Part shown: piece after piece, positions 2,742-29,687 of the stretch | Position numbering within the stretch: the stretch's first letter is position 1 | How the letters are laid out: each line of letters begins with the position of its first letter | From: Anaerolineales bacterium | GTDB lineage: Bacteria; Chloroflexota; Anaerolineae; Anaerolineales; UBA11858 | Assembly: GCA_016783125.1 (NCBI GenBank) | Contig: JADHXE010000014.1 | Location: 1 to 32,787, forward strand | Direction of reading: 5' to 3' | Length of the DNA: 32,787 nt | The notes under the pieces: model-generated | Databases searched by the model: none | The model's input: the letters and a program-made list of their open reading frames with translations, nothing else | What the model was told of the DNA's origin: nothing | Made by a program: the position numbers and the translations under genes

Positions 2742-3431
2742 ATGCGTGCCGATAATCAGGACGATATGTATCTCGAAAAACGCGAGCGGATGGTGCGTGA
2801 GCAGATCGAGCGCCGGGATATCCGAACCCCGAGCGTACTTGAGGCGATGCGCGCCGTCCCCAGGCATTTGTTCGTCCTGCCAGATCAGCAAAATCATGCT
2901 TACTCGGATGGCGCCTTGCGCATCGGCCACGGTCAGACCATCTCCCAACCTTATATCGTAGCCCTGATGACCGACTTATTAAAATTGCAAGATGATGAAA
3001 CTGTTCTGGAGGTGGGTACTGGGTCGGGTTACCAGGCCGCTGTCTTGGCGCATATTGCGGAAGAAGTACACACGATTGAACGGCATGCTGCCCTTTCGGA
3101 TAATGCAGCGCTGATATTTGAAGAGTTGGGGATCGAGAATGTCCATCTATATGTGGGAGACGGCACACTGGGATTACCAGACCAGGCGCCTTTTCAGGCG
3201 ATTATGGTCACTGCCGCTGCCCCGAAAGTGCCCCAAGCGCTCCTTGATCAACTCGACGATGGGGGCAGGTTAGTACTCCCCGTTGGACGCCGCTTCAGCC
3301 AGGTATTGGAAGTTTGGCAGCGTGTTGGCGCCAAGTATGAGCAGGAAGCCGTCACTGCTGTAGCTTTTGTGCCCCTGATTGGGGAAGAAGGCTGGTCGGA
3401 AGGGACGGGAGATCGCTCTCTTATGTGGTGA
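2742..3431 (+). CDS. pcm: Protein-L-isoaspartate O-methyltransferase
   Basis: A 229-aa SAM-dependent enzyme that methylates isoaspartyl residues in aged proteins so that they can revert to aspartate. Family motifs are in order: MVREQIERRDIRTPSVLEAM, VPRHLFV, GQTISQPYIVA (substrate region, about residues 64-74), the SAM motif EVGTGSGYQAA (90-100), VHTIER, and the C-terminal VPLIGEEGW. An internal ATG at 2766 (Met9) has a better ribosome site (CAGGA) and may be the true start. The preceding gene ends 3 bp upstream. The strong hairpin after the stop ends the transcript. Confidence 0.95.
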   Translation: MRADNQDDMYLEKRERMVREQIERRDIRTPSVLEAMRAVPRHLFVLPDQQNHAYSDGALRIGHGQTISQPYIVALMTDLLKLQDDETVLEVGTGSGYQAAVLAHIAEEVHTIERHAALSDNAALIFEELGIENVHLYVGDGTLGLPDQAPFQAIMVTAAAPKVPQALLDQLDDGGRLVLPVGRRFSQVLEVWQRVGAKYEQEAVTAVAFVPLIGEEGWSEGTGDRSLMW

Positions 3432-5977: not shown

Positions 5978-8900
5978 ATGTCGATTCTCATTACAAAAGT
6001 CAGTTTACCTGAACGGCGCAAGGATGTTTTGCGCCGTGTACGACTCGTTGACGCTCTGCATCAAAATCTTCACCGGAAGATGACTTTTATCTCAGCACCA
6101 GCAGGTTATGGGAAAACCACCCTGCTCGTGGACTTCGCAAGTGATGTGGATGCCATTGTCTGTTGGTATCACATAGGCCCAGACGATACAGATTTAAATT
6201 CGTTCGCTCAACATCTTGTGGCTGCTTTTCGCCAGAAGTTCCCCAGGTTTGGTGATGAATTGATTGATACATTTCACACCAGTGGTGCGCTTGCTCCCCA
6301 AGATATCGCAGCTGAAATTATCAATGAAATCGTGGTGCATATTGATGACTATTGTGTGTTGATGCTTGATGATTATCATCTCGTGGGTGAGAACCAGATC
6401 ATTGTGGATTTCATTGAGGTTTTGCTTGCACACTTACCAGATCAGGTACGCATTGTAATCGCATCTCGAAGCATTTATGGTGTTCCATCTGCAACGCTAT
6501 ATGTCCGTGATGAGTTCACGACGATTGGGGCTAAAGATTTACGTTTTCGGGCAGATGAACTGCAAGCACTCATCCGGCAAAGCCATCACTTTATCATCTC
6601 GGATGAACAGGCTGCTGAATTGGCAGCGCGCTCAGATGGTTGGATTGTAGCTATTATGCTGGCAATTCGCACTATGAAGCACGGCGCCTTACCGAAATTT
6701 GATGAGGCTGTTGATCAGGTTTATGCTTTCCTCGCCGAGGAGGTCGTAAATCAACAACAACCACAGCTGCAAGAATTTTTACTGGCCACTTCGATTCTTG
6801 AAGAATTTGACGAGGCGTTGTGCAATCATTTACTTCGAACATTGTCGTCTGGCGATTTGCTAAAAGAATTACAGGAGCGTAACCTATTCGTCACGCGAAT
6901 CGAAACTAACCAGGGAGTGAATTATCGTTACCATCAACTGTTCTCAGATTTCCTTAGAAAGCGACTATTGGAGATCGATCCTGAGGAGATGCAAAACTTA
7001 CACGCCCGTGCAGCTGATTGGTACAGGCAGCAAGATGCCTGGGAACCCGCGGTGCGTCATATTCTCGCAGCAAATGAACCCAAAAAAGCCGCCCGCTGGA
7101 TGGATCTGGCTGCGACAGAGTTTTTTGTTGGTGGGCGACAGAACATAGTAACCCAGTGGTACGATGCATTGGTTGCAATGCAACTTCAAAACCATGCTCC
7201 GTGTTTGCTTCTATATCAAGCTAAGATGCGGATAAATCAGAGTGCATTCGATGATGCAGAGGAATTGCTAGACATAGCTGAGCCTAAATTAAAGCATGGT
7301 GGAGATATCGATCAAATGGTGAATGTAATTATAACTCGCGGGATGATACGATATTTTCAAGGGGATTTTCATATTGCCCTGGCTCTCGGGGATGCAGCTC
7401 AAAAGATACTCACATCGGAAGATAGACGTGAGAGTTATTGGTGGTGTCAAGCCGACCGCTTGAAGGGAATTTGCCTGAGTTACTTGAATATATCAGACGA
7501 AGCGCTGGATTGTTTACAGATGGCGGTTTCCGGTTTCCGAAGCTCACTGCAAGAAACCGATTTAAATCATCAACGCGCTCAACGAGAACATGATCTGGCA
7601 GAAACATTAAATGATATGGGAGTCGTTTGTATTAGGAAAGGCGATATGCTCGAAGCGCAGATATGCTTTCTCGATGCCTTAGAGATCAAACGGAGGAGAA
7701 GAGGGAATCTAGGCGCATTGTCAGTCGCATTGAACAACGTGGGTTACGTGAATTACCAGATTGGAAATTACACGGAGGCTTGGCGCGCTTATGAGGAAGC
7801 TCTTGAAAACGCTCGATTGTCAGGTTGGAATCGGGTTCTTGTTGATGTCAACAATAGCCGAGGTGACCTGCTACAGGATATCGAAGAATTAGATGCAGCA
7901 GAAATATCATATTCAACTGCACGCGAGATCGGTGAGGCGAGCAACGAACAAATCTCGTTAATAGATACCTATACGGGGCTATCCGAATTAGAGCGAGTGC
8001 GAGGGAATTACCAACAAGCATTTCATTGGCTGCGCGAAGCTGCACGGTGCCGAAACGATACATCCGAGTCGCCCACTTACCAAGCTGGATTAGGAGCAAT
8101 CTATCTAGAAATGGGCCAGCATGAATTAGCCAGCGAGGCATTCGAACAAGCGCTCAAAGCCTGGGAAAACTTGGCCCAGCCACAGCAAGAACAAGTGCAG
8201 GGAGCCTTGCTTTTGGGTGATGCATATTTCAGACAAGATCAGGCACATCGTGCACTAGAATCATTGGCCAAATCATTAAAGTGGTCAGCACAGTTAGGTT
8301 ATGATCAGTTTCTGGTTGTTGCTGGGCATCGCTGTCAGGAGTTCCTCACCCATGCAATACAAGCCTGGCCTGATCATCCTCAGTTGAAATCATTAGTTCA
8401 ACGGATTGAACAATTACCAACTGGACTGGCAAGCTTACGAGACAAAGCTGTCCCAACAGAGATGCCTACAATACATTTGGAGATACGAGCTTTTGGGTCG
8501 AGGCAGGTGCGGTTAAACAGTGAACCGATTCCTCGTTCCAAATGGCGCTCTAGCGGCGCTCGGGCGCTGTTTTTCTACATTGTCTATCAAGAAGATGTTC
8601 GGAAGGAAGATGTTGGGCTGGAATTCTGGCCTGAATTTAGCACAGCTAAGATTAGCAGCAATTTCCATGCTACGCTCTGGCGGGTGCGTCAGGCCTTGGG
8701 AGAGCGTGAAATCATATCTTTCCACGATAAGCAGTATTTCCTGAACCCTTCCGTCACCATATGGTACGATGTCGCGGAGTTCCTTATGCATGTAAAACAT
8801 GCTGAAGCAGATGAATTGTCACCAACAAAACGCACCGAACATTTGAGACAGGCTATCGCGCTCTATCAGGGTGATTACTTGGAAGATATTTATATGGATT

Positions 8901-9199
8901 GGTCAACTCGACAGAGTGGTGAGCTAAAAGAGATGTATATACAAGCCCTTACGAAACTTGCAGGCTGGGAGGCTGATCGCCATCATTATGTTGAGGCCAT
9001 TGCCTATTATGAAAAAGCGCTTGAAGCAGATCCCTATCGCGATGATATCCATCTTGATCTGCTGAAGAGTTTTGCAAATTCTGGGGCACCTACAAGGGCG
9101 AAAGCGCACTTTCAGACTTATCGGGACTTACTACGCAAGGAATTAAAAACAGAACCCTCAGCAGAACTCCAAGATTTCTACGATCACCTATCTAAATGA
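5978..9199 (+). CDS. MalT-like NTPase-TPR transcriptional regulator with C-terminal BTAD (SARP-type) DNA-binding domain
   Basis: A 1073-aa cytosolic regulator. The N-terminal STAND NTPase has Walker A APAGYGKTT (residues 40-48) and Walker B LMLDDYH (128-134). The middle (about 370-800) is alpha-helical with repeated TPR-like units such as ALNNVGYVNYQIGNYTEAWRAYEEAL. From about residue 829 a winged-helix plus BTAD module follows (RAFGSRQVRLN, KWRSSGARALFFYIV, then ALEADPYRDDIHLDLL and KTEPSAELQDFYDHL), instead of the LuxR helix-turn-helix of true MalT. In this class the NTPase/TPR part senses a ligand and oligomerises. The ATG at 5978 has GGAAG upstream. A terminator lies at 9401. It is immediately followed by a repeat and a secreted-peptide operon that it could control or sense; that link is inference. 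Confidence 0.9.
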   Translation: MSILITKVSLPERRKDVLRRVRLVDALHQNLHRKMTFISAPAGYGKTTLLVDFASDVDAIVCWYHIGPDDTDLNSFAQHLVAAFRQKFPRFGDELIDTFHTSGALAPQDIAAEIINEIVVHIDDYCVLMLDDYHLVGENQIIVDFIEVLLAHLPDQVRIVIASRSIYGVPSATLYVRDEFTTIGAKDLRFRADELQALIRQSHHFIISDEQAAELAARSDGWIVAIMLAIRTMKHGALPKFDEAVDQVYAFLAEEVVNQQQPQLQEFLLATSILEEFDEALCNHLLRTLSSGDLLKELQERNLFVTRIETNQGVNYRYHQLFSDFLRKRLLEIDPEEMQNLHARAADWYRQQDAWEPAVRHILAANEPKKAARWMDLAATEFFVGGRQNIVTQWYDALVAMQLQNHAPCLLLYQAKMRINQSAFDDAEELLDIAEPKLKHGGDIDQMVNVIITRGMIRYFQGDFHIALALGDAAQKILTSEDRRESYWWCQADRLKGICLSYLNISDEALDCLQMAVSGFRSSLQETDLNHQRAQREHDLAETLNDMGVVCIRKGDMLEAQICFLDALEIKRRRRGNLGALSVALNNVGYVNYQIGNYTEAWRAYEEALENARLSGWNRVLVDVNNSRGDLLQDIEELDAAEISYSTAREIGEASNEQISLIDTYTGLSELERVRGNYQQAFHWLREAARCRNDTSESPTYQAGLGAIYLEMGQHELASEAFEQALKAWENLAQPQQEQVQGALLLGDAYFRQDQAHRALESLAKSLKWSAQLGYDQFLVVAGHRCQEFLTHAIQAWPDHPQLKSLVQRIEQLPTGLASLRDKAVPTEMPTIHLEIRAFGSRQVRLNSEPIPRSKWRSSGARALFFYIVYQEDVRKEDVGLEFWPEFSTAKISSNFHATLWRVRQALGEREIISFHDKQYFLNPSVTIWYDVAEFLMHVKHAEADELSPTKRTEHLRQAIALYQGDYLEDIYMDWSTRQSGELKEMYIQALTKLAGWEADRHHYVEAIAYYEKALEADPYRDDIHLDLLKSFANSGAPTRAKAHFQTYRDLLRKELKTEPSAELQDFYDHLSK

Positions 9200-9202
9200 G
9201 TT

Positions 9203-9356
9203 GGGTGCGTTTCAAATGACTTGAAAACCCTCCCGCAGGTTTTGCCGAGGTGTACAAACCGCACCCATTTACAGCAGGGGAACCGCTCTACGTTACCCCA
9301 TTTGACAACCTGCGGGAGGGTGATTGGAGCATCTCCAACTGAAATGAAACACACCC
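9203..9356. repeat. Composite inverted-repeat element with nested ~95-bp MITE-like unit (copy 1)
   Basis: The outer ends GGGTGYGTTTCA (9203-9214) and TGAAACACACCC (9345-9356) are inverted. The inner unit 9227-9321 has perfect 15-bp inverted ends ACCCTCCCGCAGGTT (9227-9241 and 9307-9321). A second copy of the inner unit lies at 29572-29665 and shares most of its interior, including CGCACCCATTTACAGCAGGG. It starts 4 bp after the stop of the regulator gene. No transposase is encoded, so mobilisation would need an enzyme in trans. Confidence 0.85.
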
Positions 9357-9400
9357 AAATGATTATAACTTGGGGCATTAGACCCACAAGGATGAAAGCG

Positions 9401-9431
9401 ATAGCTGCTCATTGGTTGAGCAGCTATTTTT
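9401..9431 (+). terminator. Intrinsic terminator
   Basis: A perfect ten-pair stem, ATAGCTGCTC with GAGCAGCTAT, around a seven-base loop is followed by a run of T. It would end transcripts of the large regulator and separate it from the small-peptide operon that starts at 9518. Confidence 0.88.
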
Positions 9432-9459
9432 TAATTCTCCGTCGTTCAGAGGTTCGTTC

Positions 9460-9498
9460 ATAGCTCATAGGATAAGCTATTGCCAACGTTTATCCTAT
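9460..9498 (+). promoter_or_regulatory. Overlapping alternative hairpins / possible operator before the peptide operon
   Basis: ATAGGATAA (9467-9475) pairs with TTATCCTAT (9490-9498). ATAGCT near 9460 can instead pair with AGCTAT near 9475, and the two helices are mutually exclusive. They lie between the terminator at 9401 and the ribosome site GGAGG of the 52-aa ORF. The 9-bp inverted repeat could equally be a protein operator. No confident promoter was seen in the 85-bp gap. Confidence 0.4.
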
Positions 9499-9517: not shown

Positions 9518-9676
9518 ATGACGAAAACAGCATTTTACAAATTATCCAATATTCTTGCTCCAATGATCAGTCCTCAACTTCTCAGACTGATTCTGTTGGT
9601 GGGAATGCTGCTTGCCAGCCTATTTTTTCCGCAAGTAGTTTTTGCAGGACCATCAATCGGAGGTGTTGGGAGCTGA
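9518..9676 (+). CDS. Small secreted peptide precursor (52 aa), candidate signal peptide pheromone
   Basis: A short ORF preceded by TGGAGG seven bases upstream of its ATG. The product begins MTKTAFYKL, has a long hydrophobic stretch (LLRLILLVGMLLASLFF) and a typical signal-peptidase I site ending VVFA. Cleavage there would release only GPSIGGVGS, nine residues rich in Gly and Ser. No homologue is known to me. The layout resembles exported pheromone precursors encoded beside TPR-containing receptors in Gram-positives, and a TPR-containing regulator ends about 320 bp upstream. Alternatives are a bacteriocin-like or membrane-embedded microprotein. The ORF is convincing because of the ribosome site and clean signal peptide; the role is inferred. 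Confidence 0.72.
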   Translation: MTKTAFYKLSNILAPMISPQLLRLILLVGMLLASLFFPQVVFAGPSIGGVGS

Positions 9677-9716: not shown

Positions 9717-9965
9717 ATGATAAATAAACTGCATCTAAACGCGATTGTTACTCAAGCACTGCTTGACAGCGAGTTTGAAAAATCTATTCTCAATGGAAAA
9801 CGAAAAGAATGCTTGGGGATGTTCAAATTAGACCAGGTTGAAGTAGACACCATCCTAGCCATTGACGCAGATGGTATTGATCAATTCATTCGCCAGATAG
9901 ATGCGTTGACACATCCCCCGACTGCTGGTTTATACAAAGGGTTATGCATGATGCCTAATCAATAG
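9717..9965 (+). CDS. NHLP/Os1348-type small protein (RiPP-leader-like)
   Basis: 82 aa. The pattern AIVTQALLDSEFEKSIL, then a spacer, FKLDQVEVDTILAIDADGIDQFIRQID, matches the nitrile-hydratase-leader-like layout as I remember it: a helix with 'LL-D-xF', then 'E...L.aID...l..f...l'. Such proteins, including the Os1348 group described from Oscillochloris, are common in Chloroflexota and resemble precursors of ribosomally made modified peptides. The C-terminal tail after the leader is short (LTHPPTAGLYKGLCMMPNQ) with one Cys. The ribosome site is weak. No maturation enzyme, transporter or peptidase is encoded nearby, so a true natural-product role is unproven. Confidence 0.72.
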   Translation: MINKLHLNAIVTQALLDSEFEKSILNGKRKECLGMFKLDQVEVDTILAIDADGIDQFIRQIDALTHPPTAGLYKGLCMMPNQ

Positions 9966-10001: not shown

Positions 10002-10247
10002 TTGGTGGAAAATCAGCGTTATTATTTATTGCTGCTCACCGATCCGGTCGAGGCACTGGCTACTGGATCCAACAGTGATCTATTTTATCTGGCTAGTGAG
10101 GAACAAGATTTAATCCTCTCCATTCGCGCCGCATCTCTAGCGGACTTCGCTATGCAATTGGCGACACACCAGAATGGAAATAATAAAAATGGCAATGGCA
10201 ATGGTAACGGTAGTTGGGGAAAGATGCGAGTTCACCAAAAAGTTTGA
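10002..10247 (+). CDS. Second NHLP/Os1348-like small protein, N-terminally short, Asn/Gly-rich tail
   Basis: About 80 aa from TTG at 10002 or GTG at 10005; an in-frame TAA at 9996 bars a longer start. It lacks the first leader helix but keeps 'LLTDPVEAL' and 'SEEQDLILSIRAASLADFAMQL', the second half of the NHLP-like pattern. Residues from about 57 form a low-complexity NGNNKNGNGNGNG stretch, then a short basic end. No good ribosome site is present. It may be a decayed paralogue of the 9717 gene or a separate leader-type peptide. It ends 28 bp before the likely start of the PAS/HD-GYP sensor. Confidence 0.5.
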   Translation: MVENQRYYLLLLTDPVEALATGSNSDLFYLASEEQDLILSIRAASLADFAMQLATHQNGNNKNGNGNGNGSWGKMRVHQKV

Positions 10248-10275
10248 CCGGTCATCATGGATATCTGATAGGCTT

Positions 10276-10812
10276 ATGGAGAAAAACGGTGATATCTCTC
10301 CGGCTGGTACACCCCTTGTCCAGTGGATGGTGGATAAGCAGGGTGTATTTACGCTATCTGAGGGGGAGGGGCTTGCAACGCTGGGTCTTGCACCGGGAGA
10401 GTTTGTCGGGAAGTCAATCTTTGATGTCTATGCCGATGTACCCCAGATTCTGGAGAATGTTCGCAGCGCCTTGGGAGGTCAGATAGTTGAAAGTACTGTA
10501 GAATTCACCGATATGGTGTGGGAGTGCCACTATTATCCCACTGGGGACCCCAACGGTGTAATTTCTGGGGTTGTTGGGACTGCGTTGAACATCACCGAAC
10601 AACGGAAACAAGTACAAGAGCAAGAAGTTGTTGTAAATTTTGCCGCAGCCCTGCGAACCGCCAGCACTCGCGCTGAGATGCCCCCCATCATCCTCGATAG
10701 AATAACCGATTTGCTGAAAGTTGATAATATGGCGCTGATTATCCGCAACCCATCTAATGGAACAATGACCATTGAGCGTGCACAAGGAATCTGGGGGGGG
10801 GGCGAACGGTAA
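10276..10812 (+). CDS. PAS domain plus start of GAF domain; 5' part of a frameshifted sensor
   Basis: This frame gives a PAS domain (TPLVQWMVDKQGVFTLSEG, PGEFVGKSIFDVY, then VVGTALNITEQRK before a linker helix) and the first half of a GAF domain (ILDRITDLLKVDNMALIIRN). It then runs into a stop just after a ten-G tract. The other half of the GAF domain continues in the +1 frame, so this is the N-terminal part of a PAS-GAF-GAF-HD-GYP protein. The ATG at 10276 is preferred because it begins next to the PAS fold and clears the upstream ORF; the open frame extends back to 10174. PAS domains sense small ligands, redox or partner proteins. Confidence 0.75.
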   Translation: MEKNGDISPAGTPLVQWMVDKQGVFTLSEGEGLATLGLAPGEFVGKSIFDVYADVPQILENVRSALGGQIVESTVEFTDMVWECHYYPTGDPNGVISGVVGTALNITEQRKQVQEQEVVVNFAAALRTASTRAEMPPIILDRITDLLKVDNMALIIRNPSNGTMTIERAQGIWGGGER

Positions 10813-12184
10813 AGCCTTTTCAATAGAAATGCATGCCCTGCTGGCTCAAAAATCCAAACAGATTGTTACCAGTGGTCAGGTGTATATTGACAGCGAGTTT
10901 TTACAAATGCCCGACTCCGGTGAAGTATTTGCTGTGGCTGGTATTCCGCTCATCGCACTGGAAAATGCTGTTGGCGTCCTGTGGGTAGGTCGGAATGCTC
11001 CCATTACGGAGGATGAAGTTCATCTACTCATTGCTATTGGTGACATGATCGCCAGCGCTCTCCACCGTGCGGCTGAACACGAACAGACAGAACGTCGTTT
11101 GCAACGCATTGCGGCTCTGCACGCCATTGATCAGGCCATCACCAGCAGCATGGATTTACGAGTCACTTTGAGCGTTCTGCTAGATCAAGTTGTACGGCAA
11201 TTAGAAGTAGATGCAGCCGATGTTCTCCTGAACGATACCCAACTACAGATGCTGAAATATGCCGAAGGGCGTGGTTTCCATTTCAACAAAACAAACAATA
11301 TGGCTCTACGATTGGGAGAGGGTTTAGCTGGGCGTGTAGCCCTGTATCGCCGCCTCATGAGCATCCCCAAGCTCTCTCAGTCCGAAAATACCATTATAAG
11401 AACCTCATTGATAGAAAGTGAAAAATTTGTTGCCTACTACGGTGTGCCATTGATCGCCAAAGGAAAGCTAAAAGGCGTTTTGGAGATATTCCATCGCAAA
11501 CCCCTGAATGTCGAAGCAGAGTGGATTGATTTTTTGGAAACACTGGCAACCCAAACTGCCATTGCGATAGACAGTGCTGAGCTGTTCAACGATATTCAAC
11601 AGTCAAATATGGAGTTAAATCTCGCATATATCGCTACACTGGAAGGCTGGGTTCGCGCCCTTGATCTACGTGATAAAGAAACCGAAGGTCATACACAACG
11701 CGTAACAAAACGAACTGTACAGTTGGCGCGATCAATGGGCATAAGCGAAGAAGAACTATTACATATGCATCGCGGCGCGTTGCTGCACGATATTGGCAAA
11801 ATTGGCATTCCCGATCATATCCTAAATAAAACCGGCCCCTTGACAGATGACGAGTGGAATCTAATGCACAAGCATCCCATCTATGCATATGAGATGCTCA
11901 ACAAGATTGACTTTTTGAAGCCTGCGTTAGATATCCCCTATTTTCATCATGAGAAGTGGAATGGCACTGGTTATCCCCAGGGTTTGGAGGGTGAACAAAT
12001 TCCTCTGGCCGCGCGTATCTTTGCTGTTGTTGATGTATGGGATGCATTGAGCTACGATCGTCCCTACCGCAAAGCATGGCCCCAAAAAGATGTGTATGAA
12101 TATGTCATTGGGCAAGCCGGAAAGCACTTTGATCCCCAAGTTGTGGAAACCTGGTTGGAAGTTTTCGAAATCCAAAAGCATTGA
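10772..12184 (+). CDS. GAF-GAF-HD-GYP cyclic-di-GMP phosphodiesterase; 3' part of the frameshifted sensor
   Basis: The frame contains the remainder of GAF1 (FAVAGIPLIALENAVGVLWVG), a full GAF2 (ALHAIDQAITSSMDLRVTLSVLLDQVV to AIAIDSAELF) and an HD-GYP domain with HRGALLHDIGKIGIPD, KHPIYAYEML, FHHEKWNGTGYP and FAVVDVWDALSYDRPYR. All metal-binding and GYP motifs are present, so c-di-GMP hydrolysis is likely. The first codons (TTG at 10772) have no ribosome site and lie in the other frame's coding sequence. The natural product is probably one protein starting at 10276 and joined by a one-base change in the G tract, about 636 aa. Confidence 0.85.
   Translation: MSVHKESGGGANGKAFSIEMHALLAQKSKQIVTSGQVYIDSEFLQMPDSGEVFAVAGIPLIALENAVGVLWVGRNAPITEDEVHLLIAIGDMIASALHRAAEHEQTERRLQRIAALHAIDQAITSSMDLRVTLSVLLDQVVRQLEVDAADVLLNDTQLQMLKYAEGRGFHFNKTNNMALRLGEGLAGRVALYRRLMSIPKLSQSENTIIRTSLIESEKFVAYYGVPLIAKGKLKGVLEIFHRKPLNVEAEWIDFLETLATQTAIAIDSAELFNDIQQSNMELNLAYIATLEGWVRALDLRDKETEGHTQRVTKRTVQLARSMGISEEELLHMHRGALLHDIGKIGIPDHILNKTGPLTDDEWNLMHKHPIYAYEMLNKIDFLKPALDIPYFHHEKWNGTGYPQGLEGEQIPLAARIFAVVDVWDALSYDRPYRKAWPQKDVYEYVIGQAGKHFDPQVVETWLEVFEIQKH
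10793..10802 (+). other. Ten-G homopolymer at the PAS-GAF/HD-GYP frameshift
   Basis: Ten consecutive G lie exactly where the reading frame of the GAF domain changes. With nine G the upstream frame reads straight into the downstream frame as GIWGG followed by ANGKAF. It may be a sequencing length error, a slippage-prone on/off switch, or programmed slippage. Confidence 0.85.
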
Positions 12185-29571: not shown

Positions 29572-29665
29572 ACCCTCCCGCAGGTTTTAGCGGGGCGTAC
29601 AATCGCACCCATTTACAGCAGGGTAGTCGCTCTACGCTCTCCCATCTGACAACCTGCGGGAGGGT
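29572..29665. repeat. ~95-bp MITE-like element, copy 2
   Basis: Perfect 15-bp inverted ends ACCCTCCCGCAGGTT (29572-29586) and AACCTGCGGGAGGGT (29651-29665). The interior, including CGCACCCATTTACAGCAGGG and CGCTCTACG, matches copy 1 at 9227-9321. Flanking sequence differs except GAAA before and GATT after. It is inserted between the uvrA 3'-end remnant and the true uvrA end. Confidence 0.9.
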
Positions 29666-29687
29666 GATTTTGAGAGGTTATTTCACA

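Follow-up and report, generated by a model that had tools for sequence, protein, structure and literature searches.

We found that the 52-codon open reading frame (ORF) at positions 9518 to 9676 of the 32,787-nucleotide stretch of Anaerolineales DNA analysed here (the window) is, judging by sequence comparison, a genuine gene. It opens a small operon, behind a large regulator gene and ahead of the gene of an Os1348-like protein of 82 amino acids (aa). Comparison between genomes showed a conserved three-gene cassette with a putative cassette-specific SARP-type operator, apparent selection on coding, and a motif which is varied or multiplied in relatives. As far as these comparisons go the cassette is real and conserved, and it is apparently undescribed within the open-access literature, where we found no earlier description of it. 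In our preferred reading, to which we give a probability of roughly 45%, the microprotein gene would be the output gene of a local SARP circuit and its exported tail a signal feeding back on the TPR regulator. The features of the region are as follows:

5978 to 9199, forward strand: regulator of 1073 aa, MalT-like STAND NTPase with TPR, putative OmpR-type winged helix and BTAD (C-terminal SARP module), from Pfam, NCBIfam and PDB
9400 to 9428, forward strand: intrinsic-terminator-like hairpin closing the regulator transcript; an equivalent hairpin with paired changes is present in the related locus L010
9444 to 9463, forward strand: candidate SARP-type operator GTTCAGAG-N4-GTTCATAG, a direct repeat of period 12, from repeat comparison and shuffles
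9468 to 9476, forward strand: −10-like element (TAGGAT / GATAAG), a few bases 3′ of the downstream repeat; GATAAG is kept in the related locus L136
9507 to 9511, forward strand: Shine-Dalgarno sequence GGAGG, six bases before the ATG
9518 to 9676, forward strand: 52-aa microprotein gene, from ORF translation, homologues and codon selection
9518 to 9646, forward strand: predicted Sec signal sequence (aa 1–43), from composition and the −3/−1 rule only
9647 to 9673, forward strand: predicted mature tail GPSIGGVGS (aa 44–52), from translation and tail comparison
9717 to 9965, forward strand: small helical Os1348/Frankia_peptide-like (NHLP clan) protein of 82 aa, the constant cassette partner, from profiles and a model
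10002 to 10247, forward strand: second Os1348-like ORF with an Asn/Gly-rich tail and an uncertain start, from homology and a weak NF038399 match
10174 to 12184, forward strand: PAS-GAF-HD-GYP signalling gene in two overlapping frames split at a G run, from ORFs and profiles

Conservation of the microprotein gene

The ORF translates as MTKTAFYKLSNILAPMISPQLLRLILLVGMLLASLFFPQVVFAGPSIGGVGS. The N-region of the protein is basic (3 K/R and zero acidic residues ahead of the core), the hydrophobic core scores 2.83 (Kyte-Doolittle) over 14 residues, and V-F-A occupies −3 to −1 of a cleavage site predicted after A43 by the −3/−1 rule only. An earlier note on this DNA had claimed a strong ribosome site, a signal peptide, a VFA cleavage site and a nonapeptide end for this ORF. 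The Shine-Dalgarno sequence is indeed in place, and composition and the −3/−1 rule likewise agree with a signal-like N-terminus, V-F-A and nine further residues. The microprotein had no match in Pfam or NCBIfam.

We searched 61 related genomes for homologues of the microprotein. A full-length 52-aa homologue was found in one congener (52% identity, E = 8e−10) in the same slot, where its neighbours are homologues of the regulator (67% identity) and of the small protein (69–72% identity). Two weak matches (E = 0.1 and 0.4) are also true cassettes, because the same two neighbours flank them. A wider search, with the conserved downstream protein as bait, covered 396 genomes at class level, 400 at order level and 400 at phylum level, and about 170 loci were read from it. 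The cassette was found in tens of Anaerolineae/Chloroflexota genomes with gene order and strand unchanged and, together with the homologue in the same slot of the congener, this indicates that the ORF is more than a product of chance. In 37 of the 48 distinct small genes listed a hydrophobic N-terminal segment is followed by a single tail, 9 have tandem repeats and 2 are leaderless with one tail.

The earlier note had suggested looking for a conserved position with a variable mature end, and had named a lack of homologous ORFs in syntenic loci, or substitutions without codon bias, as evidence against its idea of a pheromone precursor. We found that the position is kept across genomes and that the C-terminal end is short and variable; homologous ORFs do lie in syntenic loci, and the codons of the small gene appear to be under purifying selection (pS = 0.37, pN = 0.11, pooled over 18 close pairs of small genes). 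For the window versus L136 omega was ~0.58, a value near saturation, and in other pairs it ranged from 0.07 to 0.47. The pheromone hypothesis has thus outlived the checks proposed with it. That the ORF is a chance reading frame might be suggested by its very short length and its lack of a database family, but we consider this extremely improbable and ruled it out on conserved synteny, the ribosome site, the operator and selection at the level of codons.

The regulator and a putative SARP-type operator

The regulator ends at position 9199 and the next gene, on the same strand, starts at 9518, an adjacency which is conserved in other genomes. Its BTAD domain scored 71.8 bits in Pfam (cut-off 22.1) and TPR_12 scored 99.2 bits, with several TPR models above cut-off. 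The N-terminal half is MalT-like, matching PDB entry 8bob (MalT) at 1e−31 and NF003420 at 243 bits, which is under that model's cut-off of 537. Only its location in the protein points to the winged helix (about 830–930), for which there was no model match. Three BTAD proteins were found in the genome, including the window regulator; one of the two others was checked at its 3′ side and has no such ORF behind it. Six relatives were found by a regulator-based search of named genomes and, in a regulator tree, the window belongs to a well-supported group of 17, made up of nine single-tail and eight repeat forms.

Upstream of the microprotein gene the half-sites GTTCAGAG and GTTCATAG are separated by GTTC, and the same layout with different half-sites was found in other cassettes (e.g. 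GTTCATAG, GTTGAGGG, CCGTGAGA, GTGTATAG and TAGTAAAT). Direct repeats of period 11/12 were present at −90 to −50 in 19 of 33 non-redundant cassettes (shuffle mean 0.8, maximum 5, 1000 shuffles), while each of the other periods from 8 to 25 was found in at most 2 of the 33 upstream regions. In a wider, partly redundant set, 44 of 60 loci had a period 11/12 repeat, and a −10-like hexamer followed downstream in 41 of these 44, mostly 8–12 bases on (shuffle mean 12, maximum 20). The two-site pattern of the window occurs without mismatch once in the 4.33-Mb genome, and the exact pattern was found in 3 of the 61 related genomes, each time at the cassette (reversed control: 0).

A sigma-70 consensus scan before the ORF found no ordinary promoter, as would be expected for a SARP promoter. 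Published SARP promoters have direct repeats ~11 bp apart just 5′ of the −10 (PMC10936776), and the window repeats, of period 12, likewise lie just upstream of a −10-like element. We infer that the upstream regulator binds the direct repeat at 9444–9463. It should also be noted that a dispersed inverted-repeat element (CTCCCGCAGGTT...AACCTGCGGGAGG) lies at 9220–9370, between the regulator and the microprotein, with a second copy in the window at 29575–29670; of 41 places picked up in the window's genome, almost every one is a match to this element. The spacer of L010 is shorter and does not contain it.

Tail forms and neighbouring genes

Single-tail forms end in GPSIGGVGS (window), GPGTGGTGS (L136), GPTGGGGS, SPDGAGGT, DPLGGGGGGCGC, CPATGGGGCTGG, GPIPGGIGG, DGPSPGPVGG and others. 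The sequence of the tail is variable and its X-P/Gly-Gly character is kept: GG or GxG occurs within the last 16 residues of all 37 forms, and an Ala|x(x)Pro boundary was found in 25 of the 37 by a lenient automatic rule. About a third have no clear Ala|xP site, and several relatives which lack a clean Ala-X-Ala site may perhaps be membrane-anchored.

In other families the microprotein slot is filled by a DUF5317 (PF17248) membrane protein, at about 37 loci (L030, L032–L036, L039, L045, L055 and about 28 further loci), of which 22 have an exact direct repeat of period 11/12 (0.4 expected). We found no relevant paper on DUF5317 in the open-access literature. That DUF5317 takes this slot behind an operator of the same type agrees equally well with a signal and with a membrane or accessory role. 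The microprotein could accordingly be a membrane-anchored or envelope protein that acts through a hydrophobic segment left uncleaved, a miniature substitute for DUF5317 working with the Os1348-like protein, and the single-tail forms without a clear cleavage site would suit such a role. However, close relatives in the regulator clade of the window have no hydrophobic segment and have kept and multiplied the tail motif, and we regard this explanation as unlikely.

These leaderless relatives form a family next to the window in the regulator tree, one example reading MTKNFAFSHPVGGGIGTAPQSNHPVGGGIGTGPGLTHHPVGGGIGTGPGLSHHPVGGGIGTGPTL. They carry 4–5 tandem copies of (N/H)(H/Q)P(V/L/R/I)GGGIGTGP-type units, and half-sites closely similar to GTTCATAG precede most of their genes. 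Copies with the same amino acids in a single gene can be as many as seven synonymous changes apart, which indicates that selection keeps the amino-acid sequence of the unit. Repeat forms have about three origins on the regulator tree, at least two of which are forced by well-supported branches. As relatives vary or lose the leader and keep the motif, as one copy or as 3–5 tandem copies, the tail rather than the leader appears to be the functional unit. The earlier note's formula of a signal peptide plus one nonapeptide does not serve as a definition of the family, given the leaderless genes with 4–5 motif copies in the window's own regulator clade. Its overall reading is therefore kept for the conserved position, the short variable end and the codon selection and dropped for the single nonapeptide with leader as a family rule; the regulator, the operator, the Os1348-like partner and the AfsR-afsS-like layout did not feature in it.

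The repeat forms also bring to mind AfsS, a 63-aa protein with three 12-aa repeats whose gene is adjacent to that of AfsR (PMC2267785, PMC10972967). The leaderless genes of 4–5 repeats have the same shape, so that the family could consist of intracellular, AfsS-like repeat-bearing co-regulators with the exported forms as a side branch; we think this quite improbable in view of the strong signal-like N-termini of the window protein and most of the family. Two further arrangements were observed. L063 (reverse strand, about 2790–3050) encodes a hydrophobic start followed by three copies of LLANPPVGGGSSAT, every copy having an LLA|NPP boundary of its own. In each of L087, L092 and L096 a tandem pair of nearly identical microprotein genes, spaced by about 164 bp, follows one operator.

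The window's 82-aa partner scored 16.7 bits against the NCBIfam profile of the Os1348 family, below the cut-off of 40, which is reached by the relative in the DUF5317-type cassette L032 (40.7 bits). Its model is all-helical (mean pLDDT 81). No significant match was found in a PDB sequence search with the Os1348-like alignment, and none at E ≤ 0.001 in a Foldseek search with the model; VIA gave weak, tied matches of the predicted fold, including the borosin precursor SonA (Z 4.8, rmsd 5.6 over 67 residues), tied with DesB. The second Os1348-like ORF shares 52% of its residues, over a 50-aa stretch, with a further Os1348-like protein encoded at another place in the window's genome. Behind it, a run of ten G (10793–10802) separates the PAS frame (10174–10812) from the GAF-GAF-HD-GYP frame (10772–12184), and this split is probably an assembly error, a slippage site or a true frameshift in one gene. 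Among further neighbours, PAS/GAF genes recur behind 24 loci and response regulators behind 16.

The partner raises the question of whether the microprotein could belong to the small antimicrobial or RiPP-type products that a SARP switches on; the Os1348-like protein would then serve as its leader, partner or immunity factor. Antibiotic genes are commonly under SARPs (PMC10936776), and Pseudomonas sp. Os17 has in Os1348 a small, antibiotic-related precursor (PMC7726476). There are matches of family members to the Os1348/Frankia_peptide models, and the weak resemblance to SonA points the same way. Set against this, no modification enzyme or maturase, protease-exporter, peptide exporter or immunity gene was recurrent near the cassettes, no modification enzyme was present among the window ORFs, and the tails are simple Gly/Pro-rich runs. 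We hold this explanation to be improbable, and a RiPP cluster as such was rejected on the absence of modification enzymes among the recurrent neighbours. Elsewhere in the same genome, L110 (G000:C289:12800-19600) encodes another NHLP-type small protein, whose end, ...RLTMGCWGKSQPIDTCLWE, has the look of a true RiPP precursor core.

Proposed circuit and comparison with known systems

In the peptide-signal reading which we prefer, the STAND/TPR/BTAD regulator would bind the 9444–9463 repeat and switch on the operon of the microprotein and the Os1348-like protein, as the operator evidence strongly suggests. From its sequence, the microprotein would leave the cell by the Sec route, and cleavage by signal peptidase I probably releases the Gly-rich tail GPSIGGVGS or leaves it exposed. 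The tail motif would be the active part, and the Os1348-like protein an intracellular accessory. Our guess is that the tail is a short signalling peptide giving feedback to the regulator's own TPR sensor, like an autoinducing peptide. We make this guess because the TPR regulator adjoins the gene, control is self-contained, the unit is multiplied, precedents exist, the genome encodes signal peptidase I and eight OppA-type binding proteins, and signalling genes lie behind the cassette. One precedent is NosP, cited in PMC10972967 as a SARP whose ligands are peptides derived from a precursor. Adjacency to a TPR regulator and the probable operator before the ORF suit a signal peptide. Further observations count against the mechanism: the tandem forms without a leader must either be exported by a different route or work intracellularly, the microprotein is present in only 2 of the 7 genomes of the genus, and the 1073-aa regulator is far outside the 250–500 aa of RRNPP-type peptide receptors.

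Members of the Chloroflexota abound in wastewater, in sediments and in the deep sea; no peptide signal was found described for them in the open-access literature searched. It is conceivable, if doubtful, that the cassettes represent a phylum-wide form of peptide signalling, in which STAND/TPR/SARP regulators would sense X-Pro/Gly-Gly peptides from the gene they activate, made as one exported tail or as leaderless multi-copy forms. We know of no inducer for large STAND-SARP regulators such as AfsR, nor of an established mode of action for AfsS. A widespread, compact cassette which pairs a STAND-SARP regulator, an operator and a repeat-forming small peptide makes both questions testable.

Like the RRNPP(A) pairs (Rap-Phr, PlcR-PapR, NprR-NprX and others), the cassette has, directly behind a TPR regulator, a small precursor that is predicted to be of Sec type and ends in a short C-terminal part, and that group includes precedents for leaderless signals (RopB, PMC10518010) and internally repeated precursors (Rap-Phr, PMC11343458). 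The window regulator differs in its length and in having a STAND ATPase and a SARP domain, and its host is not one of the Firmicutes. Of five features listed for RRNPP systems (PMC10075063), we found three, namely a propeptide of 10–100 aa (here 52 aa), TPRs in the putative receptor and direct gene neighbours; the regulator is too long, and for Sec export the N-terminus is signal-like with VFA|GP by composition, some relatives being leaderless. With three of five features and a regulator of deviating length, we did not file the system under RRNPP.

The downstream partner falls in or near the Os1348/Frankia_peptide family (NHLP clan; NF038399, PF14407) and is predicted to be all-helical, as is the Os1348 crystal structure. 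Unlike those RiPP precursors, it has no modification genes alongside, it stands behind a SARP regulator and a microprotein or DUF5317, and its score in the window is far below the cut-offs.

The closest precedent for the layout is provided by AfsR and afsS of Streptomyces. AfsR is a large SARP with NOD and TPR domains which activates the adjacent tiny gene afsS via two 11-bp repeats (PMC10936776, PMC10972967, PMC2267785). By the features tested the window cassette is not a member of this system, because the domain order differs (STAND N-terminal and SARP/BTAD C-terminal in the window, SARP module N-terminal in AfsR) and the window product, with its predicted export and single tail, lacks the ~12-aa repeats of AfsS; in addition, an Os1348-like gene follows and the host belongs to the Chloroflexota, not the Actinomycetota. 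What the window shares with the pair in Streptomyces coelicolor is a large STAND regulator with SARP and TPR parts beside a tiny gene, a putative operator of direct repeats spaced by about one helical turn and lying just ahead of the −10 (afs box CGTT(T/C)ATCGNN, window CGTTCAGAGGTT/CGTTCATAGCTC) and, in some relatives only, short repeats in the small product.
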